Both the position numbers and the translations under genes were made by a program. Positions 7,601-40,600 of a stretch of DNA of 64,000 nucleotides are shown here, piece by piece. The stretch is from Limnoperna fortunei (lineage: Eukaryota > Mollusca > Bivalvia > Mytilida > Modiolidae). The number at the start of each line of letters is the position of its first letter. The first letter of the stretch is position 1. The notes beneath the pieces were generated by a model. The model saw nothing but the letters and a program-made list of their open reading frames with translations, made no database searches and had not been told where the DNA came from. Where the stretch lies: contig OX104118.1 in assembly GCA_944474755.1 (NCBI GenBank), positions 88,581,860-88,645,859 of the forward strand. The letters run 5' to 3'.

Positions 7601-10600
7601 TTTACAGCTGGCTTGGTTTAGGTGCAGGTTGAGTTAGAGGTCCTATTTTTACAGCTGGCTTGGTTTAGGTGCAGGTTGAGTTAGAGGTCCTATTTTTACA
7701 GCTGGCTTGGTTTAGGTACAGGTTGAATTAGAGGTCCTATTTTTACAGCCAGCTTGGTTTAGGTACAGATTGAGTTAGAGCTCCTATTTTTACATCTGGC
7801 TTGGTTTATGTACAGGTTGAATTAGAGGTCCTATTTTTACAGCTGGCTTGGTATAGGTACAGGTTGAATTAGAGGTCCTATTTTTACAGCTGGCTTGGTT
7901 TAGATACAGGTTGAGTTAGAGGTCCTATTTTTACAGCTGGCTTGGTTTAGGTACAGGTTGAATTAGAGGTCCTATTTTTACAGCTGGCTTGGTTTAGATA
8001 CAGGTTGAGTTAGAGGTCATATTTTTACAGCTGGCTTGGTTTAGATACAGGTTGAGTTAGAGGTCCTTTTTTTACAGCTGGCTTGGTTTAGATACAGGTT
8101 GAGTTAGAGGTCCTATTTTTACAGCTGGCTTGGTTTAGGTACAGATTGAGTTAGAGGTCATATTTTTACAGCTGGCTTGGTTTAGATACAGGTTGAGTTA
8201 GAGGTCCTATTTTTACAGCTGGCTTGGTTTCGATACATGTGAATGCATTAGTAAAGCTAAGAACATTTAATAAGACTTTATGTTATAATTACATATGTTT
8301 TCAGGCACGAATAAACCAGAAAGAGGAAACCATTGCCAAGTATCAGGAGTTACTGAACCAGGCACGCGAGGACATGATGGAAATGAACAAACGGCACGAA
8401 CAAGATTTGAAAAATATGCAGGAGAAGATTCATATGAACACAGATGCTGCATTTAACAAGTTCAAGGATGCAGCTAGAGAACTGATAACCAGGCAACATG
8501 TTCAGTCTGCTAGCAGTAAACAGGTTAGTTACCATGGTTACTAGAGAACTGATAACCAGGCAACATGTTCAGTCTGCTAGCAGTAAACAGGTTAGTTACC
8601 ATGGTTACTAGAGAACTGATAACCATGCAACATGTTCAGTCTGCTAGCAGTAAATAGGTTAGTTACCATGGTTACTAGAGAAATAATCACCCGGCGACAT
8701 GTTCAGCCTGCTAATAGTATGAGGTTAGTTAGCCCGGTTAATGTGTGAGAACAATTTCTTCTTTATATAGTCTAATAATACATCATTGTTATTATAAATA
8801 GAATGCTTTATTTAAGATTCCAATAAAGCCTATTGTTAAATCCTATATACCCACATATATTGATGATGTCATCGTGTAGTTTTTTAACAAAAACATGTGT
8901 CATACGAAGTCATTAAATAGTGTAGTCAAATAAAGTCAATTATGATTTCAATCAAGTATAATTGTAGAATCACTGAATTTTATTTTACAACGGTTGCAAA
9001 TTGTAGCCATAAATTTTATATCTCGCTGTTGCCTAGATGGATTTAACTCTGGCTACCTTCCCCAATAATACTTGGATACCATGATAAAGCTGAAAAATCG
9101 TTAAAATTGACACCAAACCCCAAAAACAACAAAACAGAACCTGTGGTCATAAATCTAATAACCCAAACAAATAGAACAGAACCTGTGGTCATAAATGTAA
9201 TAACCCAAACAAACAAAACAGAACCTGTGGTCATAAATGTAATAACCCAAACAAACAAAACAGAACCTGTGGTCATAAATGTAATAACCCAAACAAACAA
9301 AACAGAACCTGTGGTCATAAATCTAATAACCCAAACAAACAAAACAGAACCTGTGGTCATAAATCTAATAACCGAAACAAACAAAACAGAACCTGTGGTC
9401 ATAAATGTAATAACCCAAACAAACAAAACAGAACCTGTGGTCATAAATGTAATAACCCAAACAAACAAAACAGAACCTGTGATTATAAATGTAATAACCC
9501 AAACAAACAAAACAGAACCTGTGGTCATAAATGTTATAACCCAAACAAACAAAACAGAACTTGTGATCATAAATGTAATAACCCAAACAAACAAAACAGA
9601 ACCTGTGGTAATAAATCTAATAACCCAAACAAACAAAACAGAACCTGTGGTCATAAATGTAATAACCCAAACAAACAAAACAGAACCTGTGGTCATAAAT
9701 CTAATAACCCAAACAAACAAAACAGAACCTGTGGTCATAAATCTAATAACCGAAACAAACAAAACAGAACCTGTGGTCATAAATGTAATAACCCAAACAA
9801 ACAAAACAGAACCTGTGATCATAAATGTAATAACCCAAACAAATAGAACAGAACCTGTGGTCATAAATGTAATAACCCAAACAAACAAAACAGAACCTGT
9901 GGTCATAAATGTAATAACCCAAACAAAAAAACCAGAACCTGTGATCATAAATGTAATAACCCAAACAAACAAAACAGAACCTGTGGTCATAAATGTAATA
10001 ACCCAAACAAACAAAACAGAACCTGTGGTCATAAATGTAATAACCCAAACAAACAAAACAGAACCTGTGGTCATAAATGTAATAACCCAAACAAACAAAA
10101 CAGAACCTGTGATCATAAATGTAATAACCCAAACAAACAAAACAGAACCTGTGGTCATAAATGTAATAACCCAAACAAACAAAACAGAACCTGTGGTCAT
10201 AAATGTAATAACCCAAACAAACAAAACAGAACCTGTGGTCATAAATCTAATAACCCAAACAAATAGAACAGAACCTGTGGTCATAAATGTAATAACCCAA
10301 ACAAACAAAACAGAACCTGTGGTCATAAATCTAATAACCCAAACAAATAGAACAGAACCTGTGGTCATAAATGTAATAACCCAAACAAACAAAACAGAAC
10401 CTGTGGTCATAAATCTAATAACCCAAACAAACAAAACAGAACCTGTGGTCATAAATCTAATAACCCAAACAAACAAAACAGAACCTGTGATCATAAATCT
10501 AATAACCCAAACAAACAAAACAGAACCTGTGGTCATAAATGTAATAACCCAAACAAACAAAACAGAACCTGTGATCATAAATGTAATAACCCAAACAAAC

Positions 10601-13600
10601 AAAACAGAACCTGTGGTCATAAATGTAATAACCCAAACAAACAAAACAGAACCTGTGATCATAAATCTAATAACCCAAACAAACAAAACAGAACCTGTGG
10701 TCATAAATCTAATAATCCAAACAAATAGAACAGAACCTGTGGTCATAAATCTAATAACCCAAACAAATAGAACAGAACCTGTGGTCATAAATGTAATAAC
10801 CCAAACAAACAAAACAGAACCTGTGGTCATAAATCTAATAACCGAAACAAACAAAACAGAACCTGTGGTCATAAATGTAATAACCCAAACAAACAAAACA
10901 GAACCTGTGGTCATAAATGTAATAACCCAAACAAACAAAACAGAACCTGTGATCATAAATGTAATAACCCAAACAAACAAAACAGAACCTGTGGTCATAA
11001 ATCTAATAACCCAAACAAATAGAACAGAGCCTGTGGTCATAAATCTAATAACCCAAACAAACAAAACAGAACCTGTGGTCATAAATCTAATAACCGAAAC
11101 AAACAAAACAGAACCTGTGGTCATAAATGTAATAACCCAAACAAACAAAACAGAACCTGTGGTCATAAATGTAATAACCCAAACAAACAAAACAGAACCT
11201 GTGGTCATAAATCTAATAACCCAAACAAACAGAACAGAACCTGTGGTCATAAATGTAATAACCCAAACAAACAAAATAGAACCTGTGGTCATAAATCTAA
11301 TAACCGAAACAAACAAAACAGAACCTGTGGTCATAAATGTAATAACCCAAACAAACAAAACAGAACCTGTGATCATAAATGTAATAACCCAAACAAACAA
11401 AACAGAACCTGTGATCATAAATGTAATAACCCAAACAAACAAAACAGAACCTGTGGTCATAAATGTAATAACCCAAACAAACAAAACAGAACCTGTGATC
11501 ATAAATCTAATAACCCAAACAAACAAAACAGAACCTGTGGTCATAAATCTAATAACCCAAACAAACAAAACAGAACCTGTGGTCATAAATGTAATAACCC
11601 AAACAAACAAAACAGAACCTGTGATCATAAATGTAATAACCCAAACAAACAAAACAGAACCTGTGGTCATAAATGTAATAACCCAAACAAACAAAACAGA
11701 ACCTGTGGTCATAAATGTAATAACCCAAACAAACAAAACAGAACCTGTGGTCATAAATCTGATAACCCAAACAAATAGAACAGAACCTGTGATCATAAAT
11801 CTAATAACCTAAACAAACAAAACAGAACCTGTGGTCATAAATCTAATAACCCAAACAAACAACAGAACCTGTGGTCATAAATGTAATAACCCAAACAAAC
11901 AAAACAGAACCTGTGATCATAAATCTAATAACCCAAACAAACAAAACAGAACCTGTGGTCATAAATGTAATAACCCAAGCAAACAAAACAGAACCTGTGG
12001 TCATAAATCTAATAACCCAAACAAATAGAACAGAACCTGTGGTCATAAATGTAATAACCCAAACAAACAAAACCGAACCTGTGGTCATAAATCTAATAAC
12101 CCAAACAAACAAAACAGAACCTGTGGTCATAAATGTAATAACCCAAACAAACAAAACAGAACCTGTGGTCATAAATCTAATAACCCAAACAAACAAAACA
12201 GAACCTGTGGTCATAAATCTAATAACCCAAACAAATAGAACAGAACCTGTGGTCATAAATGTAATAACCCAAACAAATAGAACAGAACCTGTGGTCATAA
12301 ATGTAATAACCCTAACAAACAACAGAACCTGTGGTCATAAATCTAATAACCCAAACAAATAGAACAGAACCTGTGGTCATAAATCTAATAACCCAAACAA
12401 ACAAAACAGAACCTGTGGTCATAAATGTAATAACCCAAACAAATAGAACAGAACCTGTGGTCATAAATGTAATAACCCAAACAAACAAAACAGAACCTGT
12501 GGTCATAAATGTAATAACCCAAACAAACAAAACAGAACCTGTGGTCATAAATCTGATAACCCAAACAAACAAAACAGAACCTGTGATCATAAATGTAATA
12601 ACCCAAACAAACAAAACAGAACCTGTGGTCATAAATGTAATAACCCAAACAAACAAAACAGAATATAATGTAATATAATGTAATAAATCTTAGTTTTTAT
12701 CAATTATTCTTCAATAATTTTAAATATTTTTAATGTGTCAATACTTTACCACATGTTAATCCTCTGTTACAGTTAGGACGGCTGAGCGAGTTGGAGGATA
12801 CTGTAGCTGAGCAAGACAATGCAATGGCAGCTATGAGTGCTAAAATTAAACAGAAAGATGATGAAATAACAAATCTGAGACTGAAACTACAACAAGTAAC
12901 ACACCAACATGCCTCTGATAAAGACAAGTAAGTCTACAACACACCTACATGCTTCTGATAAAGACAAGTAAGTCTACAATACACCAACATGCTTCTGATA
13001 AAGACAAGTAAGTCTACAACACACCAACATGCCTCTGATAAAGACAAGTAAGTCTACAACACACCAACATGCCTCTGATAAAGACAAGTAAGTCTACAAC
13101 CCACCAACATGCCTCTGATAAAGACAAGTAAGTCTGTAACACACCAACATGCCTCTGATAAAGACAAGTAAGTCTACAACACACCAACATGCCTCTGATA
13201 AAGACAAGTAAGTCTACAACACACCAACATGCCTCTGATAAAGACAAGTAAGTCTACAACACACCAACATGCCTCTGATAAAGACAAGTAAGTCTACAAC
13301 ACACCAACATGCCTCTGATAAAGACAAGTAAGTCTGTAACACACCAACATGCCTCTGATTAAGACAAGTAAGTCTACAACACACCAACATGCCTCTGATA
13401 AAGACAAGTAAGTCTACAACACACAAACATGCCTCTGATAAAGACAAGTAAGTCTGTAGTATTTTGGATTCATGTCAAGTTAATTGTTCAATTGTTAGAA
13501 GTTGATGGGTATTTTTACTTGTTTAATACTTACTTTGTAACTTGCTATAGAGCTTTAGATTTTTGTGGTACAATTAAAAATTATAAAATCTGTATCTACT

Positions 13601-16600
13601 GAGATGAACTAAACACAGATCTGTATAATACTGTGGTTTCATTTTAATTCATGGGATACTAATTTTCATAGTTATCTTGGGAAAGGACAAACCACGATAA
13701 GAAAGGTTCACTAATGCCGTTGTCATCATGTACTGAGTTTATTATTTTATTGTCATATGAGCACTTATTTATGTAAGAACTATTTTATCAAAAATAATCA
13801 AATAAACCTTATCTGTTGCATTTGCCAAATGTTATACAAATCCTGATATCTTTATATTCATACAAGTTTGCATTGAAGCCAGAAACAAAGAATGACTGGC
13901 AAAACAAGTCATTTACTTTTTAATTATCCTTAATTGTTTATATAAAGTCAATTAAAACATGTGAAAAAATGAAGGTTTTTTTAATCCAAATCACCATCTG
14001 TCTCTTGGCAGCAGTAAATCAATCAGCTGGTCATTTGTTTCACCTTTACATAAATATACTGGCACCCCATATTATAAATTCCCGAGGCCTCCTCCCCAAG
14101 TGTTTAAGGTAGTTTGTCTACTATTGATCACGTGGTCTGTCAACACTGAGATTGCGGGTTCAATTCTCTCTGCAGGCAGGGTGTACTCAACTCCAATCTT
14201 AATTGACAAGGATTGCCAGTTTTCCTACCGCAGGTCTGGGGTTCTCTCCGGGTACTCCAACTTCCTCCCCCAGTAAAAACTGGACGCCATGATATAGCTG
14301 CAAAATTGATGAAAGTGGCGTTAAAACACCATTCAAACAAACAATATTATAAATTCCCTAATTTACATACAAAACATTGATGCAGAATTGTACTAACTTT
14401 CATCAGGGAGTTTTTAAACAACTGAAACAAAATGAAGATACAGTATCTACAGAGTGGACAAAATTTTTCTGAAAAGTTTAAATTCTTTCGTTTTTCAAAG
14501 ACAATGTCAATACAGAAATAAAACAACAATAACCAATTCACAAACCACACAATTTAGAGCTCCACAAAATGTCTATTTTCCTCAAATCAAGAAAATTGAT
14601 ACACACGAAAATAAATGAGACCACAGTAAAACATCTATCTGACTGAGATCTAACACAAACAATACAATTATCTGTCTGCTGCAGCTTAAGTGGAGAACTG
14701 AAGTCACATGTGGAAAAGAAGGACAAAGAAGCGGATGATTATAAACGACAGATTGAACATATGAGGAAAGAAATTGAACTTTTGACCCAGGAAGTGGATA
14801 CACTGAAGGACCAAAACAATAGGGCTCCTACAACAACAATGAAGAACTTGGTAGAGAGACTCAAGAACCAACTTGCTTTGAAGGAAAAACAGCATCAGGT
14901 AAACATCATATTAAACCATTAGAACAAATAATCTTACCCTAGCGATTTTCTTCTTTTTGTTTTTGGCGAGGGTACGAATATAGTCCCATTACTCATAATG
15001 TAGCAGAGCTGGAGTGAATCACTCCCTGCACTTTGATGTCCAAAAGAAGTTGCATATACAATCAGACGTGGTCGATCTTGATATCTTTCGACAGTGTCAC
15101 CATTTTTTTATCAGTTTCGTGTTTAAAATCTATCATTATTGATACCTGATAATAGTTATTGCCGTTTTTAATAACCCGCTTTGCGTTGTGTATTAATTGA
15201 CATTCGTGTCTTGTTTAAATTACGTATACTACAGGAAAAACATTGAGAAACCCGAAAATGAATGGCATGTTGCATCTTGGGTAATACATATGTAAATTAT
15301 TGGATTCTTACTACGGAATGGTTGTTATAGTGTGCAAATGAGCACGATTATAATAAAATTAGGTCACATTATCCATATATGGAAAAGTGATCAACATAGC
15401 ATTTTCCACGTGCATCTTCAAGATGAAAAAAGAAATTTCTTTAATAAAGATTGTTTCCCGTTAGTTTCCCAATGTCTAAAACTTTAATAACGTAAAGAAG
15501 ATGAATATTATGTTTGAAGTTAGTAAAATAGACCGAAGTTAGAATTTTTTATTTGCTACATTACTAGCAATAGGACTGAATTCTGCCATTAATCCGACAA
15601 ATCACAAAACTAACTACGGATTATAACGGCAGTAAAATTCGGCCTAATTAAACCATCTGTTGAATGTTGCCTAAGTGGAGATGATACATATAGACTGTGC
15701 CTGATATCCAATCCATTTTAGATTTATTCCTTGATAATATATGTTTAGATCAAAACAAACATCACAATGTAATATGAACTAAAAAAATACATGTAAGAGT
15801 TCACACAGGAATTCACACCTTTATTTGAATCTTTGACAGCACTTCAGAGCAAATAAGGTCCACCAAGCTCATGAATAATCTTTATTTCTATGCATATTAC
15901 AGACCGAGTTAAGCTTTAACAGAACTTGGAGCAAATATCACCCATCATCTTTATTTCTATCTTTATGACAGGCTCTGAGTAAAGCTTTGACAGAACTTAG
16001 AGCAGATATGATCCAGCAGGCTCAAGATCAAGTGAAGCACACATCAGATGAATCAGAACAACAAATAAATGTACAGAAAATAATTGATAAACAAACAAAA
16101 GAGCTGACAGTAAGTAAGATCAGATGTTTACACTTGATGGTACTGTACAGAGCTAACAGTAAGTAAGATCAGATGTTTACACTTGATGGTACTATACAGA
16201 GCTGACAGTAAGTAAGATCAGATGTCTACACTTGATGGTACTATACAGAGCTGACAGTAAGTAAGATCAGATGTCTACACTTGATGGTACTGTACAGAGC
16301 TGACAGTAAGTAAGATCAGATGTTTACACTTGATGGTACTATACAGAGCTGACAGTAAGTAAGATCAGATGTTTACACTTGATGGTACTATACAGAGCTA
16401 ACAGTAAGTAAGATCAGATGTTTACACTTGATGGTACTATACAGAGCTGACAGTAAGTAAGATCAGATGTTTACACTTGATGGTACTATACAGAGCTGAC
16501 AGTAAGTAAGAACAGATGTTTACACTTGATGGTACTATACAGAGCTGACAGTAAGTAAGATCAGATGTTTACACTTGATGGTACTATACAGAGCTGACAG

Positions 16601-19600
16601 TAAGTAAGATCAGATGTTTACACTTGATGGTACTGTACAGAGCTAACAGTAAGTAAGATCAGATGTTTACACTTGATGGTACTATACAGAGCTGACAGTA
16701 AGTAAGATCAGATGTTTACACTTGATGGTACTGTACAGAGCTAACAGTAAGTAAGATCAGATGTTTACACTTGATGGTACTGTACAGAGCTGACAGTAAG
16801 TAAGATCAGATGTTTACACTTGATGGTACTGTACAGAGCTGACAGTAAGTAAGATCAGATGTTTACACTTGATGGTACTGTACAGAGCTGACAGTAAGTA
16901 AGATCAGATGTTTACACTTGATGGTACTGTACAGAGCTGACAGTAAGTAAGATCAGATGTTTACACTTGATGGTACTGTACAGAGCTAACAGTAAGTAAG
17001 ATCAGATGTTTACACTTGATGGTACTGTACAGAGCTAACAGTAAGTAAGATCAGATGTTTACACTTGATGGTACTATACAGAGCTGACAGTAAGTAAGAT
17101 CAGATGTTTACACTTGATGGTACTGTACAGAGCTAACAGTAAGTAAGATCAGATGTTTACACTTGATGGTACTGTACAGAGCTAACAGTAAGTAAGATCA
17201 GATGTTTACACTTGATGGTACTGTACAGAGCTAACAGTAAGTAAGATCAGATGTTTACACTTGATGGTACTATACAGAGCTGACAGTAAGTAAGATCAGA
17301 TGTTTACACTTGATGGTACTGTACAGAGCTGACAGTAAGTAAGATCAGATGTTTACACTTGATGGTACTGTACAGAGCTAACAGTAAGTAAGATCAGATG
17401 TTTACACTTGATGGTACTGTACAGAGCTAACAGTAAGTAAGATCAGATGTTTACACTTGATGGTACTGTACAGAGCTGACAGTAAGTAAGATCAGATGTT
17501 TACACTTGATGGTACTATACAGAGCTGACAGTAAGTAAGATCAGATGTTTACACTTGATGGTACTGTACAGAGCTGACAGTAAGTAAGATCAGATGTTTA
17601 CACTTGATGGTACTGTACAGAGCTGACAGTAAGTAAGATCAGATGTTTACACTTGATGGTACTGTACAGAGCTAACAGTAAGTAAGATCAGATGTTTACA
17701 CTTGATGGTACTGTACAGAGCTGACAGTAAGTAAGATCAGATGTCTACACTTGATGGTACTATACAGAGCTGACAGTAAGTAAGATCAGATGTTTACACT
17801 TGATGGTACTGTACAGAGCTGACAGTAAGTAAGATCAGATGTTTACACTTGATGGTACTGTACAGAGCTGACAGTAAGTAAGATCAGATGTTTACACTTG
17901 ATGGTACTGTACAGAGCTGACAGTAAGTAAGATCAGATGTTTACACTTGATGGTACTATACAGAGCTGACAGTAAGTAAGATCAGATGTTTACACTTGAT
18001 GGTACTGTACAGAGCTAACAGTAAGTAAGATCAGATGTTTACACTTGATGGTACTGTACAGAGCTAACAGTAAGTAAGATCAGATGTTTACACTTGATGG
18101 TACTATACAGAGCTGACAGTAAGTAAGATCAGATGTTTACACTTGATGGTACTGTACAGAGCTGACAGTAAGTAAGATCAGATGTTTACACTTGATGGTA
18201 CTATACAGAGCTGACAGTAAGTAAGATCAGATGTTTACACTTGATGGTACTATACAGAGCTGACAGTAAGTAAGATCAGATGTTTACACTTGATGGTACT
18301 GTACAGAGCTGACAGTAAGTAAGATCAGATGTTTACACTTGATGGTACTGGAGTAAAGAGCTGACAGTAAGTAAGATCAGATGTTTACACTTGATGGTAC
18401 TGGAGTAAAGAGCTGACAGTAAGTAAGATCAGATGTCTACACTTGATGGTACTGTACAGAGCTAACAGTAAGTAAGATCAGATGTTTACACTTGATGGTA
18501 GTATACAGAGCTAACAGTAAGTAAGATCAGATGTTTACACTTGATGGTACTGTACAGAGCTAACAGTAAGTAAGATCAGATGTTTACACTTGATGGTACT
18601 GTACAGAGCTGACAGTAAGTAAGATCAGATGTTTACACTTGATGGTACTGTACAGAGCTAACAGTAAGTAAGATCAGATGTTTACACTTGATGGTACTGG
18701 AGTAAAGAGCTGACAGTAAGTAAGATCAGATGTATACACTTGATGGTACTGGAGTAAAGAGCTGACAGTAAGTAAGATCAGATGTCTACACTTGATGGTA
18801 CTGGAGTAAAGACATGTTAAAAGAAGTCTTACAAGATACAGTTTACAGATGACTCTTATTGTCAGTCAATGTAAGCTGATCATGGACCACCATAACTCTT
18901 AATCTCCATCTACCATGATATACTTCCTGTGAAGTTCATTTGCTGATGAGAACATGAAAAAAAACCACAAATTTTAATTTAAGTTTGTTCTCTATTTAGT
19001 TGGTTAAAGATCTGTAAAGAGTGGGCTGTGTAAAGAGTTACTACTGTGGCTAAGTGGGCTTTGTAGTTAGACATCTACTAATGATCAATGGTTTGTCAAC
19101 ACTGGGGGTGCGAGTTCGGGCAAGCTAGACTACAGCCTTAATTAAGGCCCCGTCACTTTGTGGCGGATGCCCTATAGTGATCCGTCCGTCCGTCCGTCCG
19201 AACTAATCGTGTCCGGCCTGTCACATTCCCAAATTGCAGAATAAAACAAATTTATGCTAAAATATTTTTTATTTGAGGAATAACTTACAACTTTGTTTTT
19301 ACCATTTGAATGTAAGTTAATTAATAATCATGTAATTATATCTATTTTAAATTACAGTTACTAATAACATATAGTTTAGCTTTTCATTGTCTGCAATTTG
19401 GGAATCGGCTAACTGGATTCGGCAATATGTGATTGGGCAGTTTGGGAATCGGCAATCTGGGATGCTATCAGTATTACTTAACATCTGTGATTTTGTTTAG
19501 GACCAGAAAGAAGATACGTAATGTATTCTATAGTATTACTTAACATCTGTGATTTTGTTTTGGACCAGAAAGAAGATACGTAATGTATTCTATAGTATTA

Positions 19601-22600
19601 CTTAACATCTGTGATTTTGTTTAGGACCAGAAAGAAGATACGTAATGTATTCTATAGTATTACTTAACATCTGTGATTTTGTTTAGGACCAGATAGAAGA
19701 GCTGCAATCACAGGTGGATAAACTGAGGAAGGAACTGAAAAAACGGAAAGAGACTGAATCTACAATACAGACAGAATTAGATGATCTGAAGGAAGAAATG
19801 GGTACAGATTGTAATAACTTCTGTCAATCATCAACTAAGTTAGACAGTTATTCCCCTTTATTAAAAAACATGGTGCAAATAAACATGATTGTATGACAAA
19901 AATTTCTGATGATAAATTGAAAGGCGACATAGGGTGACTTCAACTTGGCTACAAGGCATAGTGGGACCACAATAAGGCGAGTTTTTACTGGAGTCATCAT
20001 CCAACGTGAGCCCAATCTCAAACATTAATTATAGCATGCTTGATTGAATGTATACATAGTAATAAATTGATTCATTATCAATCCATGTTCTTTGACATGA
20101 TAATTACTTTGATTGGCTTCGTACCTAAGGTAACATTTGGGAATTTTCCTGCGATGATTTTGATTGGCTTCGTACCTAAGGGAAGATTTGTGAATTTTCC
20201 TTGGCTGATTTGACAAAAATGTTTGATTTTGGAAATTTTAAGTGGCTAATTAAGTTCAGATATATCCATCATTAAAATGATTTGCCAATTGTGAAAGTGT
20301 CAAGGGCTAGCAAAATCACTGAAACTGTGGTCAGGGTGTGCACAACTCTAACATACATTAACCAGACTTGATCCCGCCGGAGATGGGTGTTTTCAACAGT
20401 CACTTTGCCTTCCTCCTGCAAATAAAACTTGACACGGTGCTATTGCAGAAAAATTGCTAAAAGTATCATTAATACCTCATTCAAATTAACATAATATATA
20501 ATCAATGTTTGATGGTACTGGTATTATCAATGTTGATGTTTTTAAGTTACACTGTTTTTATGTGTTATAGGGCGGAAAGAGAAAAATCTACAACGTTTTA
20601 AGTCAGATAAACATAGACTTGAAGGAGAGGTGGACGAGCTGGAGAAAAAAGTGGAAAGAATGAGTACAATGAAAACACAGAAGATGGGTGATGATGCCAG
20701 ACAACAGGAAACAGAAGAATTACGTCGCAGAGTGCGTCTGTTAGAAGACGAACTGAAACGAAAGCAACAACAACCAGAGAAACCATATGAACATCCTCGA
20801 GATCCGGAACCTGCTCCACCAAAGAAAGAAAAGGTAATGTATCATGATCATATGTATGTTACAGACAAATAGTCCTGTTAACAGCATGGTTAAATGATCA
20901 TATGTATGTTGTAGACAAACAATCCTGATAACAGTGTGGTTAAATGATCTCATATGTACAGTAGAACTTCGATAACTCGAACTCGCTGGGGTCGCCAAAA
21001 ATAGTTCGAGTTATCGGTTGTTCGAGCCACCGAAGTTGGACAACCTCCGGAAATGTATCTGTTCCGTACCGTGACCGATTTTGTTTATTTTCCTACACGC
21101 GGTATGGTTGTTTTTGAGAACTAAAATTCGTTTTGAATGTATATAGATGTTTATTTCATGAATTTTGACACGAATAAAGTTATTTTAGGTGTAATAGTTT
21201 GTGAAATTTAAAATTTCTACATTGCTTACTATTTACTACCGTTATTGCGCAAAAACCCGTTTCTACTCGGTATATCTATCGCAGTTAAATTAAGTAAATA
21301 ATTTCCACAATTTTTATTGCTGACACATTTTTCATAATTATTTTAGCTTTAATATTTGGTTTTTAATATCAATTTAACCACAGTTGTCAACAAAAGTTGT
21401 AAATAATTTTTAATTGGAATATTTTCGTTGATTTGATAATCCACTTGGTACATTTCATATTTTCTATTAAAGAAACAATTAATGTCTATTTGCCTGTTCA
21501 AACTAATCACCAGTCATGACATAATTATTATCTATTATTTTTTAATTGACATACTTGTGTTAATTGTTATGGCTTCTGTTATCCACGTCCTTTGTACCTG
21601 AAATACATTGCTTCGCACTGACGCTTTATAATTTTAGTTCGAGTTATTGATGGTGACTTACATGAGTTTACTATCAAAGGGACCTATAAATGAGTTCGAG
21701 TTTTCGAGAAATCGGTGTTCGAAAAAGGGGGTTTTTTGTACAAACATATATAGAAATAAATGTCGGGACTTTAAAGACAGTTCGAGAAATCGGTGGTGTT
21801 CGAGCCATCCGAGTTCGAGGTACCGAAGTTTTACTGTATGTTATAGACAAACAGTCCTATTAACAGCATGGTTAAATGATCATATATATGTTGTAGACAA
21901 ACGATCCTGATAACAGTGTGGTTAAATGATAATATGTATGTTATAGACAAACAGTCCTGTTAACAGCGTAGTTAAATGATCATATGTATGTTATAGACAA
22001 TGCAAACACTCCTATTAACAGTGTGGTTAAATGATAATATGCATGTTATAGACAAACAATCCTGTTAACAGCATGGTTAAATGATCATATGTATGTTATA
22101 GACAAATAGTCCTGTTACCAGCATGTTTAAATGATCATATGTATGTTATAGACAAACAGTCCTGTTAACAGCGTGTTTAAATGATCATATGTATGTTATA
22201 GACAAACAGTCCTGTTAACAGCGTGTTTAAATGATCGTATGTATGTTATAGACAAACAGTCCTGTTAACAGCATGGTTAAATGATCATATGTATATTATA
22301 GACAAACAGTCCTGTTAACAACGTGTTTAAATGATCATATGTATGTTATAGATAAACTGTCCTGTTAACAGCATGGTTAAATGATCATATGTATGTTATA
22401 GACAAACAGTCCTGTTAACAGCATGTTTAAATGATTATATGTTTGTTATAGACAAACAGTCCTGTTAACGGCATGGTTAAATGATCATATGTATGTTATA
22501 GACAAACAGTCCTGTTAACAGCATGGTTAAATGATCATATGTATGTTATAGACAAACAGTACTGTTAACCGAATGGTTAAATGATTCATATGTATGTTAT

Positions 22601-25600: not shown

Positions 25601-28600
25601 GATCTTGACCTCAATTTCACGGTCCAGCGACTACGTTAAAGTTTTTGGGTTACGACAGTTCCTCTGTAACTACGCATGGTAGGATGACAATATTTGGTGT
25701 GTAGGTTGCTGATGACTAGTACATGACTGTCTGATAGGTGTCACCTGACCTTGACCTCAATTTCACGGTCCAGCGACTACGTTAAAGTTTTTGGGTTACG
25801 ATAGTTCCTCTGTAACTACGCATGGTAGGATGACAATATTTGGTATATAGGTTGCTGATGAATAGTACATGACTGTCTGGTAGGTTCCACCTGACCGTGA
25901 CCTCAATTTCACGGTCCAGCGACTATGTTAAAGTTTTTGGGTTACGGCTGTTCCCCTGTAACTATGCAGGGTATGGTGACAATATTTTGTATACAGGCCG
26001 CTGCTGATATTTAATGCTATTTACGTAATGCTTATGACGAAATTTATTTTCGTTACTGATGCGGAATGCAGGCGAGACGTTTTTCTGTGTCCACACTTGT
26101 TATTCTTTTTGGCTGTACTAATCATTGTTTTTATTCTTTATGGCTATGCCAATCATTGTTTTCATTCCTCATGACTGTACCAGCAGTGAATTTTTTAGCG
26201 CTCGCCACTTTCGTCATTGACGAAATCATTTGAAAATTGACGATAGATTTCTAAATCAATTTCGTCACCTGATTTCCAACAAGTACTAAAATTTTTCGTT
26301 ACAAATTCATTCTACCAAGTGTAAAACGACATATTTATGACCCCAAAGCCAATTCAGGAAATTTAATTATTTCACCTTGATAGTTTTAAACAGCAGGTGT
26401 CAATCATCGAATAGATGTTTTAACAGGTAATCCGATTAACATGATTATAAGTGGTGCTCCTGGTCATGTACGCAAACAAAAGTGTCGTAGATCGTACTGA
26501 TGCGCACAGACTTCCACCTTTTGATTAAATATGTAATGCAAATAAAAATTGCAAAGATTTTGCGTATTTAACTCATTTTTCGTATGTTTTGCTGGTTTCA
26601 AATGGATTACGCGCCATTTGTTTACATCCGAGATACGTCTAATTACCGATGGTTACCACTTAAAAAACGAAGAGTACAACGGCCCTTAATGAAAAATTGT
26701 AACCGATTGATAGACAAACACTTTTTAAATAAGTTTTAAAATTAAAATTCTTTGAAAATTTATTAACGTTTTGTTATAATCATTTTTTTAAACAAATTTA
26801 TACACTGCAATTGAAAGAATATAGTTGTTTATACTGTGCAATTATATTTCACCAGTACAATGAATGCATGCTTCTGAGCAGATGCTTATACGGCTCATCC
26901 GCTAAAGTGACTAATGTCTTTTTTATACTTCATGGCTGTACCAATCTCTGTTTTCATTCTTCATGGCTTTACCAATCATTGTTTTTTTCATTCTTCATGG
27001 ATGTAATAATATCTGTTTTTATTCTTCAAAGCTGTACCAATCATTGTTTTTTTTCATTCTTCATGGATGTAATAATATCTGTTTTTATTCTTCATGGCTG
27101 TACCAATCACTGTTTTCATTCTTAATGGCTGTACCAATCACTGTTTTCATTCTTCATGGCTGAACTAAGAATTGTTTTTTCATTCTTCATGGATGTAGTA
27201 ATATCTGTTTTTATTCTTCATGGCTGTACCAATCACTGTTTTCATTCTTCATGGCTGTACCAAGAATTGTTTTTTCATTCTTCATGGATGAAATAATATC
27301 TGTTTATATTCTTTATGGCTGTGTGTTGGTCATTGTTTTTATTTACTTCATGCTAGATAATGATGCCACCTTTTTAGGAATTCATCCATTTGTATTATAT
27401 AGGTATCTAACTTAAGAAGACAACTTGCCATGGATAAGGATGCCGCCTTCCAGGAATTACAAACAAAGAATCAATACTTACAACAACAACTAGAACAACT
27501 GGAGCAGAGAGAACAAGTTATAGCACAGAAAGCTGTGACTACATCAGCTGTAAGTATAGTTAATGGCTCTGGAGCAGAGAGAACAAGTTATAGCACAGAA
27601 AGCTGTGACTACATCAGCTGTAAGTATAGTTAATGGCTCTGGAGCAGGGAGAACAAGTTATAGCACAGAAAGCTGTGACTACATCAGCTGTAAGTATAGT
27701 TAATGGCTCTGGAGCAGAGAGAACAAGTTTTAGCACAGAAAGCTGTGACTACATCAGCTGTAAGTATAGTTAATGGCTCTGGAGCAGGGAGAACAAGTTA
27801 TAGCACAGAAAGCTGTGACTACATCAGCTGTAAGTATAGTTAATGGCTCTGGAGCAGAGAGAACAAGTTTTAGCACAGAAAGCTGTGACTACATCAGCTG
27901 TAAGTATAGTTAATGGCTCTGGAGCAGAGAGAACAAGTTATAGCACAGAAAGCTGTGACTACATCAGCTGTAAGTATAGTTAATGGCTCTGGAGCAGGGA
28001 GAACAAGTTATAGCACAGAAAGCTGTGACTACATCAGCTGTAAGTATAGTTAATGGCTCTGGAGCTGAGAGAACAAGTTATAGCACAGAAAGCTGTGACT
28101 ACATCAGCTGTAAGTATAGTTAATGGGTCTGGAGCAGAGAGAACAAGTTATAGCACAGAAAGCTGTGACTACATCAGCTGTAAGTATAGTTAATGGCTCT
28201 GGAGCAGAGAGAACAAGTTATAGCACAGAAAGCTGTGACTACATCAGCTGTTAGTATAGTTAATGGCTCTGGAGCAGAGAGAACAAGTTATAGCACAGAA
28301 AGCTGTGACTACATCAGATGTTAGTATAGTTAATGGCTCTGGAGCAGAGAGAACAAGTTATAGCACAGAAAGCTGTGACTACATCAGCTGTTAGTATAGT
28401 TAATGGCTCTTGAGCAAATAAAGTCTAGTTAATGGCAGACTGGGGCAAAGAAAGTGTAGTTAAAGGCAGACTGGGGCAAAGAAAGTCATCATATCACATT
28501 ATTCATGCAAAAGAATGTGTTGTCATTAGTTTCATTCTAATCTTAATTATTTGGTCATAATTATAATTTGGACTAAACAAACATGTTTACATTTCCAATA

Positions 28601-31600
28601 ATGTTATGTTTGATGACAGTTATGGACAATATGTGATGTTTATTGACAGTTATGGACAATATGTGATGTTTATTGACAGTTATGGACAATATGTGAGCCT
28701 CTGGTTTTATTTACAGGAGTTTGGATCAGCAGGAACTGTAGCTGCCAGGGAATACCAGGAACTATTTGAGAAGAATCAGTCACTACAGAGGCAGATGTTG
28801 GCCTTGTCTGAGGAAAACATCGAATTTAAGTTTGAAAATGAACAGTTCAGGAAAGATGTTCCCAGATTAAAGGTATGATGTAGAAGTCTTCAGTTCAGTT
28901 GCCATGATGAAATATTTACATAAACTACCCAAGATGGGAAACATTATCAAATTAAAATTTTTATGGCATGCATCGTTTTACAAAAACTTAATCTGCCTTG
29001 AAAAAAAGTTTCATGCAATTAAGTGCATTGCTAAATATTGGCAGCCATCTTGTCTTCCAAATGGCTACAGAGACAGTCAACATATATGTCATATTGTCCA
29101 GTATAACATACTTCATTTATTTACTAATTTTCATTAAAATCCATAAACTTTTTGAGTTTTTAGAATTAATTTTTATTATTTTCCATTTTCAAAATTGGAC
29201 ACATTTTAAAAACTTATTCGACAACTTCAGGTCAACATACAGTCTCCAAGAAAACTTCCAGGCAAAATTTTGGCAGAAAGTGGAAGAATAATGACAAGAT
29301 TGTCAAAATATATGTTTATGGAAAAAATAAGCTAGTAATTTTCATAACTTTTCAATTTGACCCATTTAAAATTTGGTTTTGAAGAATCGCCTGTCACCTT
29401 CTATCTTACCAACACAGATATGGATATTTAAACTGTGATTGGAATTTTGATTTTCTAAATGAATTTTTTCAGGCAAGAGTGAAAGATTTACAAAAGTATG
29501 TAGAAGCTCTTAAAATAGAAAACACGCAACTTGGTGGACACAACACAACTCGATCTGGTGGATCACAAGATTCCTCGGTGTCCAGTGGAGTCAGAAGGGT
29601 AAGTTTGATTCCTCAGTGTCCAGAGGAGTTATAAGAATCAGTTTGATTCCTCAGTATAAAGTGGATTTAGATGGGTCAGTTGTATTTCCTTAGCGTCCAG
29701 TGGATTTAGATGGGTCAGTTGTATTTCCTTAGCGTCCAGTGGATTTAGATGTGTCAATTTTATTCCCCAGTGTCCTGTAGAGTTAAATGGGCTAGTTTGA
29801 TTTCTTCAGTGTCCTGTAGTGTTATAGGGTCAGTTTTGTTCCTCAGTGTCCTGTAGTGTTATAGGGTCAGTTTTGTTCCTCAGTGTCCTGTAGTGTTATA
29901 GGGTCAGTTTTGTTCCTCAGTGTCCTGTAGTGTTATAGGGTCAGTTTTGTTCCTCAGTGTCCTGTAGTGTTATAGGGTCAGTTTTGTTCCTCAGTGTCCT
30001 GTAGTGTTATAGGGTCAGTTTTGTTCCTCAGTGTCCTGTAGTGTTATAGGGTCAGTTTTGTTCCTCAGTGTCCTGTAGTGTTATAGGGTCAGTTTTGTTC
30101 CTCAGTGTCCTGTAGTGTTATAGGGTCAGTTTTGTTCCTCAGTGTCCTGTAGTGTTATAGGGTTAGTTTTGTTCCTCAGTGTCCTGTAGTGTTATAGGGT
30201 CAGTTTTGTTCCTCAGTGTCCTGTAGTGTTATAGGGTCAGTTTTGTTCCTCAGTGTCCTGTAGTGTTATAGGGTCAGTTTTGTTCCTCAGTGTCCTGTAG
30301 TGTTATAGGGTCAGTTTTGTTCCTCAGTGTCCTGTAGTGTTATAGGGTCAGTTTTGTTCCTCAATGTCCTGTAGTGTTATAGGGTCAGTTTTGTTCCTCA
30401 GTGTCCTGTAGTGTTATAGGGTCAGTTTTGTTCCTCAGTGTCCTGTAGTGTTATAGGGTCAGTTTTGTTCCTCAGTGTCCTGTAGTGTTATAGGGTCAGT
30501 TTTGTTCCTCAATGTCCTGTAGTGTTATAGGGTCAGTTTTGTTCCTCAGTGTCCTGTAGTGTTATAGGGTCAGTTTTGTTCCTCAGTGTCCTGTAGTGTT
30601 ATAGGGTCAGTTTTGTTCCTCAGTGTCCTGTAGTGTTATAGGGTCAGTTTTGTTCCTCAATGTCCTGTAGTGTTATAGGGTCAGTTTTGTTCCTCAGTGT
30701 CCTGTAGTGTTATAGGGTCAGTTTTGTTCCTCAGTGTCGTGTAGAGTTAGATGGGTCAGTATGATGTCTTCAGTGTCCTGTAGAGTTAGATGGGTCAGTT
30801 TGATTCCTCAGTGTCCATTGGAGTTAGATGGGTCATTTGATTCCTCTGTTTCCATTGAAGTTAGATGGGTCAGTTTGATTTCTCAGCGTCCAGTGGATTT
30901 AGATAGGTCAGTTTCATTCCTCAGCGTCCAGTGGAGTTAGATGAGTAAATTTGATTCCTCTGTATCAAGTGGGATTGAGATGGGTCAGTTGTATTCCTCA
31001 GTGTCTTTTAGAGTTAGATGGATATGTTTTGACAGGTTTTACAAACCTGAATTGTATTACAAAATTCTTAGTAGAATTAATTGTAGAAAATAATACATTT
31101 GTCTATAAATACATGTCCTTGATGTTGGTCAGTTGGTTTGTTAATGTTCGTTATTTTCAATATTTACTTAAAACATTAAATATTGTCTCACGTTTGATTT
31201 TTTAGGGGAACTTCTTGGGGAGTAAACACAATTTATTATATTTTGTCTGGAAATAAATCGAGTTTAATTTATCAAAAGATATTAAAATGGTTAGGATCAG
31301 GTTAAATGCAATGAACCACTCAAAGCCCATACTTAATGTGGATAACATGGTGGTGTTACAGATAGGAGAAAGTGGGAAGAGTACGAGAGAATTGGAGAAG
31401 ACGGTGGCTTTACTGAAGAAAGTAGTGGAGAGAGTTCAGGCTGAGAACGAGGTGTTGAAGAAGACTGCTGCAGGAGAGGCCAATATACGTATACAGACGC
31501 TACAGATAGAAAATGAAGGACTTAAGGTATCATTTACTTTGACCAGAACTGCAGTATACCACTATGAAACAAAATGGAATGATCTGCCAAATAATTTTAG

Positions 31601-34600: not shown

Positions 34601-37600
34601 ATGGGGTATCACTAGGAGTTCACAGATTTACCTTGTTTTTAAATCATGGGGTATCACTAGGAGTTCACAGATTTACCTTGTTTTTAAATCATGGGGTATC
34701 ACTAGGAGCTCACAGATTTACCTTGTTTTTAAATCATGGGGTATCACTAGGAGCTCACAGATTTACCTTGTTTTTAAATCATGGGGTATCACTAGGAGTT
34801 CACAGATTTACCTTGTTTTTAAATCATGGGGTATCACTAGGAGTTCACAGATTTACCTTGTTTTTAAATCATGGGGTATCACTAGGAGTTCACAGATTTA
34901 CCTTGTTTTTCAAAATAAAGGTAATACTAATACTAACATCACTCAATAATCCATTATCCATTTACCACTAATGCAGAAATTCCTCAATAATTCATTATCT
35001 GTTAACAGTTAATGCAGGTCTTCCCCAATAATCCATTATGTGATATCTGTTGGCAGGAAATTGAGACAAATGAGAAGTTAAGGACAGAAATAAGAAATAT
35101 AGAATTCCAGAAAGAGCAACTCAATGCACAACTACAGGAATCAAAGTCCTTGTCAACACTAGACAGACCTACACAACAGTCTATGGAAACCAAAGGATGG
35201 AAAGCTTCTGTAGCTACAAGAATGTACGAGGGAAAGCTGAAAGATCTGGAGACGGACTTAGCTAAAAAGGTAACAGTTTGTCTGCTTGTAACATATCATG
35301 TACGAGGGAAAGCTGAAAGATCTAGAGACGGACTTAGCTAAAAAGGTAACAGTTTGTCTGCTTGTAACATATCATGTACGAGGGAAAGCTGAAAGAACTT
35401 GAGACAGACTTAGCTAAAAGGTAACAGTTTGTCTTTGTATAACATATCATGTACGAGGGAAAGCTGAAAGATATGGTGACGGACTTAGCTAAAAAGGTCA
35501 CAGTTTATCTTGTATAACATATCATGTATGAGGGAAAGCTGAAAGATCTGGAGACGGACTTAGCTTATAATTATACCAGTTTGTCTTTGTATAATATATC
35601 ATATACAGGTGAAAGCTGAAAGATCTCGAGACAGATTTACCTAAAAAAGGTAACAGTTTGTCTTAGTTTTAAGTATCATTTACGAAAGGAAGCTGTAAGA
35701 CCTGGACAGAGAATTAGCTTTTGTCTCGCCTGCGACGATAGTCACTGGAAGCGAGACACTTAAAACTTTGCTTTATATCTTTGTAAGCTGAAGCCCTAGG
35801 TCAATCAAATTGGTCCAGTGGTAGCTTATGATGAGTACCGGTACTTGCAGTCAGTCACCTGTCACCTGACCTTGACCTCAATTTTATGGTCCAGTGGCTA
35901 CGTTAAAGTTTTTGAATTAGGGCAGTTCCTCTGTAACCATTCATGGTAGGATGACAATATTTGGTATATAGTTTGCTGATGAATAGTACATGACTGTCCG
36001 TTATGTTGACCTCAGAGTCTATGTTAAAGTTTTTGGATTTGGTTAGTTTCTCTGTAACCATGCATTTTATTTTTTAAATGATAACAATTTAATGCTATTT
36101 ACGTGGTGCTCATGACATAATATTTACTGATGTGGAATGCAGGCAAGACATTTTTCTGTGTCCACAGATTTTAATGGAAATCTATGAGATCAGACATTTT
36201 TAGGGTTTTTCCTGAATATGACTTTTCCATGAACATGATGATTAGTAATATCAGTCACTGCTTACATGTCCAGAGCTTTTATTGGGTTACTCGCTGGTGT
36301 TTTTCATTGTGTCATGTGTTGTCCTGATTTTGTCATTGTCCTTTATTGACTGATCAGTTTTCCTACCTTTGTCCTGATTTTGTCATTGTCCTTTATTGAC
36401 TGATAGGTTTTCCTACCTTTGTCCTGATTTTGTCATAGTCCTTTATTGACTGATCAGTTTTCCTACCTTTGTCCTGATTTTGTCATTGTCCTTTGTGGAC
36501 TGATCGGTTTTCCTACCTTTGTCCTGATTTTGTCATTGTCCTTTTGTTGACTGATCGGTTTTCCTACCTTTGTCCTGATTTTGTCATTGTCCTTTTGTTG
36601 ACTGATCGGTTTTCCTACCTTTGTCCTGATTTTGTCATTGTCCTTTTGTTGACTGATAGGTTTTCCTACCTTCCTACCCTCCAACAATATGACTTTAATA
36701 ACTGACAGATGTTCTGGATAGATTATTTACAGCTAATGTGTAAAAATATAGTTATTCCTGCAGATACCCCATTGTAGATGTAGATATGTAGATGTAAAAT
36801 TGAGGAAATTATAGAAACATTTGATATGATAGATCCATGGCGTACATGCCACCCAGATGAAAGAAAGTACACTTGGCGCCAGTCCTCACCAATAAAACAA
36901 AGTCGTCTCGACTATTTTTTGGTTACACAAGATTTATTTTCACTTATGAGAAATCCAACTATAAATCCAGGTTATAAAACTGACCACTCAGCAATAACCT
37001 TTACATTCTCTGCTAACGTAGAAAAAAGAGGGAAAGGTTATTGGAAATTTAACTCCCAACTATTAAAAGAGTCAGATTATGTAGAAAAAGTTAAAATTTG
37101 TATAAGAGATACTGTTGCTGAATATCATACATCAGGTGATGTAGAAGACTTCTTAAATGTTAAACTCTCTTGCAATGATCAATTATTTTTTGAAATTTTA
37201 AAAATGAAAATACGGTCATTGTCAATAGAATACAGTATCTCAAAATCTAGAAAAGAGAAAAATATGATAGGCAAATTAGAAGAAGATATAGAAAAGTTAG
37301 AAAATATTATGAATGAGACTCCAAATGATTTTATCCTTAAGTCTTTACAAGACAGAAAATTTGAATTAGAAAATATGAGAGCAAAAAAAATTGAAGGTTT
37401 GATACTACAAGAGCCAACTGGCATGACAATGGTGAAAAGTGCTCTCAATACTTTTGTAAATTAGAAAAAACGAATTTTATTAAAAAAACAATTACCGAGC
37501 TCATTGACAATGAAGGCAATAAACTATCAAAACAGTCAGACATTCTGCTTGAACAACAAAATTTCTACAATAATTTGTACCTAAGCAGAAATGCTGACTG

Positions 37601-40600
37601 TGATGACAGTTCTTTTTTTCAACATAATGTTAAACTTACAGATGTACAAAAAGACTCTTGTGAGGGAAATATTACTTATAAAGAATGTGGAAAAGCACTC
37701 ATGTTAATGGAAAAAGCCCAGGTTCAGATGGCTTTACCTATACAAAAACAACAATTGAGGATATTCTATCATTAGATATTTTAAATTTTTCACCATTGTC
37801 AGAATTTCCTTTATATATCACTTGGAAATCAAAGGATTGCAATTCTTGAAAGATATTTTTAACCAGCATAGTGAAGATTTTAGTACTTTTGCTGAATTGA
37901 AACAGAAGCTACGGACCAGTAACTTCTTAAAATATTACAATCTTATTGCCAACATCCCGAAAGATATTAAAAATTTCGTTAAAAAAAACTGTAAAGCAGA
38001 GAGTATAAACTCGATTAATGGAGATAAATTTATAAACAAAATTGTTAATGATAAAAAGCCAAAATTTATTTATGATGAGTTTATTAATCAAATTGTGCAA
38101 ATGCCAGTGCAAAGGTTTTTGAAGTGGGAAGAAACTTTACAAATAGAAACAACAAACTGGTCAAAATATTTTGTAACTAAAAAAAAGTCATGTAAGAATG
38201 CATATTTATATAATTTTCAGTATAAATTTTTACATAGAATCATCCCAACAAACATTTTTTTGTACAAAATAAAACTGAAAGACTCACAACTGTGCTGCTT
38301 TGGTAAAAATAATGAAGAAACAATTGAACACTTATTTTATGAATGTACTATAACTAATCAGATTTGGGAATCAGTTATTAGTAAACTTAGATCATACTTT
38401 TGCAATGTAGCTTTTGACAAAGAAGGCTTATTTCTTGGTTTTGTTAATGGCACACCCCTATTTACTTATAATTATTACTAAAAGATACATTTACAAATGC
38501 AAACTAAATGAAGCACTACCAAATATCATTGAACTGCAGTGTAAAATACAACAATATAAACAGATTGAACGTTATATTGCAGAGAAAAATAACACAATGT
38601 CCAAGTATGAAAAATTCTGGGCTCCCTTACATCTTATTTTCTCATGATTTCAAATCGATTGTCAAGTTTGATATACATGTTGATGTACATGTTAATATAG
38701 TTTTATGTTATTGTAACGCAAGCTACAAAGATCACTTTAGATTATAAATAGGTGTTGGTTGAATGAGGTTGTGTGAGAGAGTGTGATCAACTTCTTTTTT
38801 AATTTTTACAGGCTCTTTAAGTATTTAGTCAAAATGTATTATATACCAAAATTAATTAGTCAGATTCTAAAGACTTATTTATAATCCCTGAAAACCCTAG
38901 TCAGGTGGTATTGTACAGGGAATTGTTAAATCCTGACTGCTGAAAAAAAAAAAAAAAAAAAAATGATTAGGCTCGTAGCTACTTCAAAGGCTAAATTTTT
39001 CCTCTCCTAACTAACCTCCCTATTTTTACAGCAGTATTCAAATGTATCTGAGCACACTCTTTGTCTTTCTATATCTCTGTTGGTTTATTGTTTGTAAACT
39101 TGTTCTCATCCTGAATACTGCTCACTGGACAGCAATTATCCAGTCAGTCAACTCCTGCTGACCATTACATTGTATTTATGAAAAAATTAAAAAAATGTAT
39201 GTATAAATTCTAGTATTATAATATTTTTCTATTTTTATTGGTGTCTTTTGACTCTCCTCTCATCTCAAATACATTGGTGTAGCAGCCGGTAAGGCAGGTA
39301 CAGCTTCCGCTGTACCAATATCAAATGCAGGTACGGCTTCCGCCGTACCAATATCAAATGCGATGCTATGCCTCTGTAGACATTTGCATGTGTCTCTGTT
39401 TTGCAGAACAAGATGTTGTCAGACACTAAGATATTGTTAAAGGAAGCAGCAGAGAGGGAGCAGTTATTGTTACAGGAGAGGGAAGATCTCAGACAAAAGG
39501 TATGTATTTTACTTAAGAAATCAGCAGAGAGGGAGCAGTTATCAATACAGGAGAGATAATATATCAGACAATAGGTGGGAGCAGTTATTGTTATACATAT
39601 ATGAAAGATAAGATCTCCAACAAAATCTAAGGCTTTACTAAAGGAAGTTTTAGAGAGGGAGCAGTTATTGTTACAGGAGATATCTCAGACTGAAGGAAGT
39701 TGCAGGATCTGATTCTAAAAAAAATAACTACATTTAGGTTCGAATAATTCTATTCATGCTGTATTTTATTTATATTAAGTGCTTTGATTGGATAAAAACA
39801 CTTAAATCGCGATATCTCAGATAATTTATAAAATGGATATTTCCTCTGAGCGGACTACTTTCAGTATCCAATGTAAACAAGATGGCGTCCTCCTAGCGTA
39901 TCATCAGGGAGAGGGGACAATGTTTTCTCTGCCACAATGATTTCCAATTAAATTGACTGAGATTTCTAATAAAACATAATATATAAACAATTTAGTGTTT
40001 AATTTTGCTTTTTTTCATATTAATATCTACAGAACCGTGATTCCTTTGGTACTATGTTTTGCATATCCCTATGCTTTCCGGCCTAGGTACGTTTTAAGGT
40101 CTAGATGGGTTTCGGTAACTGTTTTTGCTGTTTTAAAAATCACAACGATTATTTCACAGAATTATAAGGTGTAAACACAGAATTATAAGGAGTAAACACT
40201 CGGTTTTAGGAAATTATCAATGTGTAAACTCCGGCGACTCCCTCACAAACTTGACATAAAGTCCTTCGAACTTTATTTGGTTTGTGAGTGAGTCGCCGGA
40301 GTTTACACATTTATAATTTCCTAAAACCCAGTGTTTAATTCTATTGTGTTTCACATGACAAACTGGCTTCAGTTTGAGTTCAAACAAAAGAAGTCAAAGT
40401 TGTAACTTATGTTTCTTTTTAGAAATCCAGGTCAGGAAATAAATCATTACATCTCATGAAGTCATACCAATTCTGACAAAATTTAAGATTTTATACATTG
40501 AGGATCAGACAAAATTAAGTAATGAAATATTTATTCACAAAACAACTGAAGGAAATTCCACAAACACACACTTTTCGATGTTGAAGGAGACTTGCTCTTG

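Follow-up and report, generated by a model that had tools for sequence, protein, structure and literature searches.

CEP290 and its junction arrays

The window analyzed here, a stretch of 64,000 nucleotides from Limnoperna fortunei (GCA_944474755.1, contig OX104118.1, positions 88,581,860 to 88,645,859), harbors exons of the gene CEP290 from a mussel-like host, together with minisatellites that begin inside an exon and run across its 5' splice site (donor) into the following intron. Coordinates are given relative to the window, and exon numbers follow an initial annotation of the same DNA. Sixteen exons (2 to 17), bounded by AG and GT, together form a single 828-codon open frame; to keep this frame, the boundaries of exons 6 and 12 were each moved by one base. 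The best relative of the translation is CEP290 of Mytilus coruscus, to which 99% of the query aligns with 85% identity. A match to CEP209_CC5 was found some 4.6 kb upstream of the window. Including exons upstream of the window, 29 CEP290 exons were placed, of which 27 gave a donor; of the other two, one donor was uncalled and one exon was the last found.

Arrays were located by Tandem Repeats Finder (TRF), inspection of the sequence and unit-by-unit alignment, which agree on the tandem arrays that the initial annotation had described in this gene (Table 1). In each junction array the first unit consists of coding sequence plus the donor, and the later units are near-identical copies of both. 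In the window, unit-by-unit alignment of six arrays places their starts 8-51 nt before the exon end, compared to the 8-55 nt given initially. Copies of the acceptors of exons 5 and 6 are likewise present upstream of these exons as had been reported. Other details differ from the initial annotation. Eight of 19 donors in the window had been counted as crossed; seven are recovered by the fixed rule described below, whereas the donor of exon 16, followed by decayed copies, reaches a score of only 29, with a slightly different segment, where the rule needs 30. The exon 8 array exists with a slightly shorter unit and about one copy more than the 39 bp x23 described, and the exon 12 array has the described 37 bp unit, with fewer TRF copies than the 38 counted. 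Arrays beginning close beyond the donors of exons 7, 9 and 18 were found at exon 7 (Table 1) and at exon 18, where the TRF row begins after 27 nt; at exon 9 there is no TRF row and a decayed motif was seen by eye only.

Upstream of the window, the donors at -7224, -4600, -3183 and -2648 and the acceptor at -5821 are also crossed. TRF arrays lie over the donors at -7224 (38 bp x28.7), -3183 (43 bp x3.3) and -2648 (37 bp x62.5), and the donor at -4600 is followed by a small number of copies. Altogether, donor arrays make up 10,416 of 58,898 CEP290 intronic bases, or about 18% of the intron sequence spanned.

The alignment with M. coruscus CEP290 is free of gaps at the junctions of exons 2, 5, 8, 10 and 15. 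What is seen at these five arrayed junctions is growth of the introns. The alignment differs at the junction of exon 3. There the M. coruscus model, a predicted protein, contains a tandem duplication of 33 residues (query residues ~480-513, the end of exon 3), made up of a second copy of 23 exon 3 residues and ten intervening residues without counterpart in the present translation. Either the gene model is wrong here, or a second donor is really used. Its implied unit is 99 bp, compared to 40 bp in L. fortunei, which suggests that the two duplications arose separately.

Table 1. Junction arrays and further exon positions of CEP290 in the window
Feature	Position	Strand	Remarks
67 bp x3.9 array over exon 2 donor	8474..8731	+	first unit 50 nt exon + 17 nt intron; GT in 4/4 units
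40 bp x13.9 array over exon 3 donor	12898..13455	+	30 nt exon + 10 nt intron; GT 14/14
71 bp x1.9 duplication over exon 5 acceptor	15878..16009	+	exon 5 = 15972-16109
49 bp x54.9 array over exon 5 donor	16100..18803	+	10 nt exon + 39 nt intron; GT 55/55
62 bp x3.8 array over exon 6 acceptor	19465..19700	+	exon 6 = 19687-19801; one upstream acceptor copy without AG
50 bp array beginning 11 nt beyond exon 7 donor, donor uncrossed	20844..20958	+	TRF
38 bp array, ~24 copies, over exon 8 donor	23222..24143	+	exon 23090-23229; 8 nt exon + 30 nt intron; GT 21/24
70 bp x13.1 array over exon 10 donor	27499..28416	+	exon 27403-27549; 51 nt exon + 19 nt intron; GT 13/13
Exon 12 donor: decayed copies, then 37 bp x28.6 (TRF 29753-30816)	29577..30816	+	exon 29473-29598; start by local alignment
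76 bp x6.4 array over exon 15 donor	35222..35706	+	exon 35057-35269; 48 nt exon + 28 nt intron; GT 5/7
Exon 2	8305..8523	+	open frame, AG/GT edges, M. coruscus CEP290 match
Exon 3	12773..12927	+	open frame, AG/GT edges, M. coruscus match
Exon 16	39407-39499	+	decayed copies of exon end downstream, to 39720

The introns of CEP290 also contain very long arrays that are clear of any exon edge, at 43013-50129 (37 bp x191) and 1869-8237 (47 bp x135). Stop-broken frames at 36784-38481, in the intron after exon 15, resemble by eye a remnant of a LINE-type endonuclease and reverse transcriptase. De novo exon finding yielded no candidates in about 110 kb beyond CEP290, but the finder detected no more than about ten exons of CEP290 itself, which means that this region may still contain genes.

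Frequency of crossed donors in CEP290, kinesin and myosin loci

A splice site was scored as crossed if the surrounding 40-nt segment is matched, on both sides of the site, by a local copy at most 300 bases downstream for a donor or upstream for an acceptor. Random intronic points without a copy on the other side served as the null, so that each array is collapsed to one unit. By this rule 11 of the 27 CEP290 donors are crossed, compared to a fraction of 0.076 (7.6%) of collapsed intronic points (P=2e-6). The acceptors are crossed at background level (3/29 compared to 0.109, or 10.9%; P=0.63). Arrays are dense in this gene, as 26,208 of the 54,698 tested intronic points, about half, lie within one, and chance might place some of them on donors. 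However, the collapsed background that accounts for this density is exceeded at donors and not at acceptors, which makes coincidence a quite unlikely explanation.

Kinesin loci were analyzed with the same rule, and myosin donors were examined as well. Of 126 kinesin matches 55 were used, in which 42 donors and 50 acceptors were called and 41 and 49 were testable. Left out were the copies of a cluster on C15 and near-identical paralogues (one of each was retained), the matches to a gene on C10 with an 846-residue open frame, and matches whose sequence was not fetched. The myosin sample comprised 20 of 89 matches, picked before their sequence was seen, with mostly short open frames without stops. 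Fifteen myosin donors were called automatically and five by hand, one of them with just 15 nt of exon, and the test region was likewise set before the sequence was seen. The myosin pieces were 320 bp long, so that copies beyond about 250 bp would escape detection.

Crossed donors recur in these genes, as the initial annotation had anticipated. Four of the 41 kinesin donors are crossed (background 0.0155, P=0.004), whereas the acceptors remain at background (1/49 compared to 0.0108, P=0.41). Against the kinesin-locus background of 1.55%, two crossed myosin donors among 20 give P=0.038. Kinesin and myosin donors combined amount to 6/61 (P=0.0004; 95% interval 4 to 20%), and CEP290 and kinesins pooled show a difference between donors and acceptors (P=0.0024). 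The excess at donors over intronic points is 5- to 6-fold in CEP290 and the kinesins. A 20-mer measure agrees, with 7/22 donors and 2/23 acceptors in CEP290 and 4/42 donors and 1/50 acceptors in the kinesins (pooled P=0.021), and its rate profile peaks around the donor and is down by about 60 nt into the intron. The kinesin arrays have units of 94 bp (at least 16.8 copies, as the array extends up to the limit of the fetched sequence), 72 bp (x3), 56 bp (about three copies) and 56 bp (x11.9). In both families the copied segment is coding sequence of the motor domain, including in the myosins the coding end of the exon. This indicates that the exon is the source and the intron the recipient.

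It may be asked whether these arrays are artefacts of assembly, since long arrays are difficult to assemble and the copy numbers are possibly wrong. The arrays, however, differ in unit between independent genes on separate contigs (51-115 Mb in an assembly of 1.34 Gb), their units are distinguished by ordinary substitutions, and a related event occurs in M. coruscus. An artefact is therefore extremely unlikely.

The kinesin cluster on C15 is an observation in its own right. Within C15:10215763-10313772 there are 34 copies of one kinesin exon among the listed matches, many of them spaced by about 1.93 kb; those below ~10.27 Mb lie on the minus strand and those above it on the plus strand. Twenty fetched copies have acceptor- and donor-like edges, and the translations of the 18 that were compared are identical, with two variants at third positions. 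One piece of the cluster (L027) contains, besides the 1,928-bp spacing, a repeat with 146-bp spacing; a CEP290 intron also contains a 146-bp array (25301-25987).

State of the copies and probable use of the first donor

The GT dinucleotide is intact in 239 of 247 units. Substitutions per site amount to 0.030 in the exonic part, 0.031 in the donor and 0.037 in the intronic part (P=0.15, the array of exon -8 being excluded). Variable columns make up 17% of the donor (20/115) and 19% of the rest of the exonic part (84/447), and they differ little between the three codon positions (29/160, 28/163 and 34/163). Conservation of the donor motif above the rest of the exonic part was sought over all arrays together and is not supported. 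On balance, the copies act as untranslated sequence with no special care for the donor.

These data bear on the proposal that donor-bearing copies are selected, for instance because they recruit more U1 snRNP to the starts of long introns. The high number of intact GT dinucleotides would fit such a function, as would the donor columns of seven of the 12 arrays, which diverge by at most 0.009. Overall, however, the donor varies like the remaining exonic part, and in the other five arrays, including the one of 63 units, it is more variable than the exonic part. Selection for these copies is thus unlikely. Of the two alternatives offered in the initial annotation, that copies with a donor are tolerated or that they are favored, the former fits and the latter finds no support across the arrays taken together. 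For the most part the copies look like neutral intron, in which a large number of intact donors further downstream is tolerated.

Reading beyond the first donor leads to a stop within 1-81 nt in all six CEP290 arrays checked, and none of their unit lengths is divisible by three. With the first donors used, the 828-codon frame stays open. Judged by the reading frame, the first, upstream donor is probably the one used. Among the donor-crossing arrays of CEP290 and the kinesins one of 13 unit lengths is divisible by three (P=0.039), as though in-frame units were disfavored, in a sample too small to build on.

The best explanation of these observations, which we consider probable, is that units of 37-94 bp straddle the exon end and the 5' splice site and likely survive because the spliceosome would keep the first donor. 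An initial tandem duplication would be multiplied via slippage or unequal exchange, like other minisatellites, and the intron would lengthen. A duplication across the donor would leave the original donor upstream and intact, so that later copies would be spliced out and become intron. It is likely that introns can lengthen in this way without a change in the protein. At the acceptor, a copy upstream would be a competitor that the splicing machinery meets first and would add sequence to the message, so that acceptor arrays may be purged or kept short. Copy number is indeed greater at donors than at acceptors (P=0.005), in a post hoc test of 15 against four arrays into which some donor counts were entered roughly, the array of exon -8 as 15 instead of the computed 28.7. 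Tolerance is the favored mechanism.

Several observations weigh against this interpretation. CEP290 was chosen for its striking look and its P value is therefore biased. Outside CEP290 the difference between donors (6/61) and acceptors (1/49) is non-significant (P=0.10), so that the contrast leans mainly on CEP290. Two of the four kinesin cases sit in one gene (C5:99.49 Mb), and the myosin sample consists of donors only and was tested with the kinesin background. A constrained first copy also remains detectable for longer than two neutral copies, an effect of, at a guess, up to about twofold, compared to the observed 5- to 6-fold excess. Two results argue against full neutrality of the copies. 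Within the arrays, intronic columns are more variable than exonic ones (62/174 compared to 84/447), perhaps owing to alignment at array ends, and substitutions per cell climb with codon position (51/2053, 59/2052 and 82/2099), in a count whose cells are non-independent and include the first, coding units.

Tolerance accounts for the difference between donors on the one hand and acceptors and exon interiors on the other, but not for that between donors and presumably neutral intron, for which an extra cause is needed. Duplication may be more frequent at the ends of exons, or copies may persist for longer where they are tied to an exon under constraint. The former corresponds to the view that splice donors are mutational hotspots, where a process linked to transcription or to exon-intron composition starts duplications at the 3' ends of exons far more often than elsewhere. 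This is a tentative alternative. It is consistent with the size of the donor excess and its absence at acceptors, with the peak of the 20-mer profile at the donor, and with the M. coruscus model, in which the exon 3 junction of CEP290 has a duplication of another size. However, purging can explain the deficit at acceptors equally well, and duplications inside exons would mostly be lost to selection, which renders the exonic rate invisible. The initial phrase 'exon-intron borders' is broader than the data, as the excess occurs at donors and is missing at acceptors, a contrast that leans mainly on CEP290.

Relation to known repeats and intron growth

Structures of this kind are known from amphioxus, where two reports describe 'mirages', minisatellite-like tandem duplications of a 5' or 3' exon-intron boundary, in the globins BflGb6 and BflGb9 and in Adh3 (PMC3087553) and in PGBD5, with Adh and TnC also cited (PMC3902484). 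According to these reports, mirage copies often hold splice signals, regular splicing is reportedly undisturbed, and mirages were proposed as a source of introns (PMC3087553, PMC3902484). The L. fortunei arrays share with them a unit that spans the exon-intron boundary, both at donors and at three of the CEP290 acceptors, and the presence of splice signals in the copies. For mirages regular splicing is reported, whereas here the evidence is indirect, from the open frame and the alignment with a homologue. Mirage units measure 10-72 bp in Adh3 and 150-160 bp in the globins (PMC3087553), so that the donor units of 76 and 94 bp fall between the published ranges. Mirages are described there from a few cephalochordate genes, whereas the present arrays occur in a mollusc, contain up to 63 units and are found at donors of CEP290, kinesins and myosins in excess over the local background. 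The AGGT model likewise involves tandem duplication over or near splice signals, but it concerns the origin of a new intron, whereas the present arrays enlarge introns that already exist and none that is new was seen. Intronic position and short units are shared with ordinary minisatellites of mollusc introns such as the 27 bp repeat of an abalone TSSK1-like gene, whose number differs between individuals (PMC6905558). No overlap of that repeat with an exon edge is described in the accessible part of the report, in contrast to the arrays analyzed here, which cross it. Among the matches listed in a literature search (titles and abstract beginnings of Creative Commons-licensed PMC papers), there was no report of junction minisatellites in molluscs. 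As far as these searches show, what is new is the occurrence in this phylum, how often the arrays are found, and the excess at donors relative to the local background.

The growth of introns is commonly attributed to transposons. With junction minisatellites there would be a second route, one that propagates itself and has its origin precisely at the edge of the exon. It is conceivable, though still doubtful, that in this mussel lineage tandem duplication has its hotspots at 5' splice sites throughout the genome, that about one in 10 donors carries a junction minisatellite, that donor arrays are a main route of intron growth and that the asymmetry between donors and acceptors reads out a first-come choice of donors by the spliceosome. 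Junction arrays can mislead gene models, as may be the case for the 33-residue duplication in the CEP290 model of M. coruscus. Each array also represents a natural test of splice site choice, in which one donor is chosen among up to about 60 near-identical ones.

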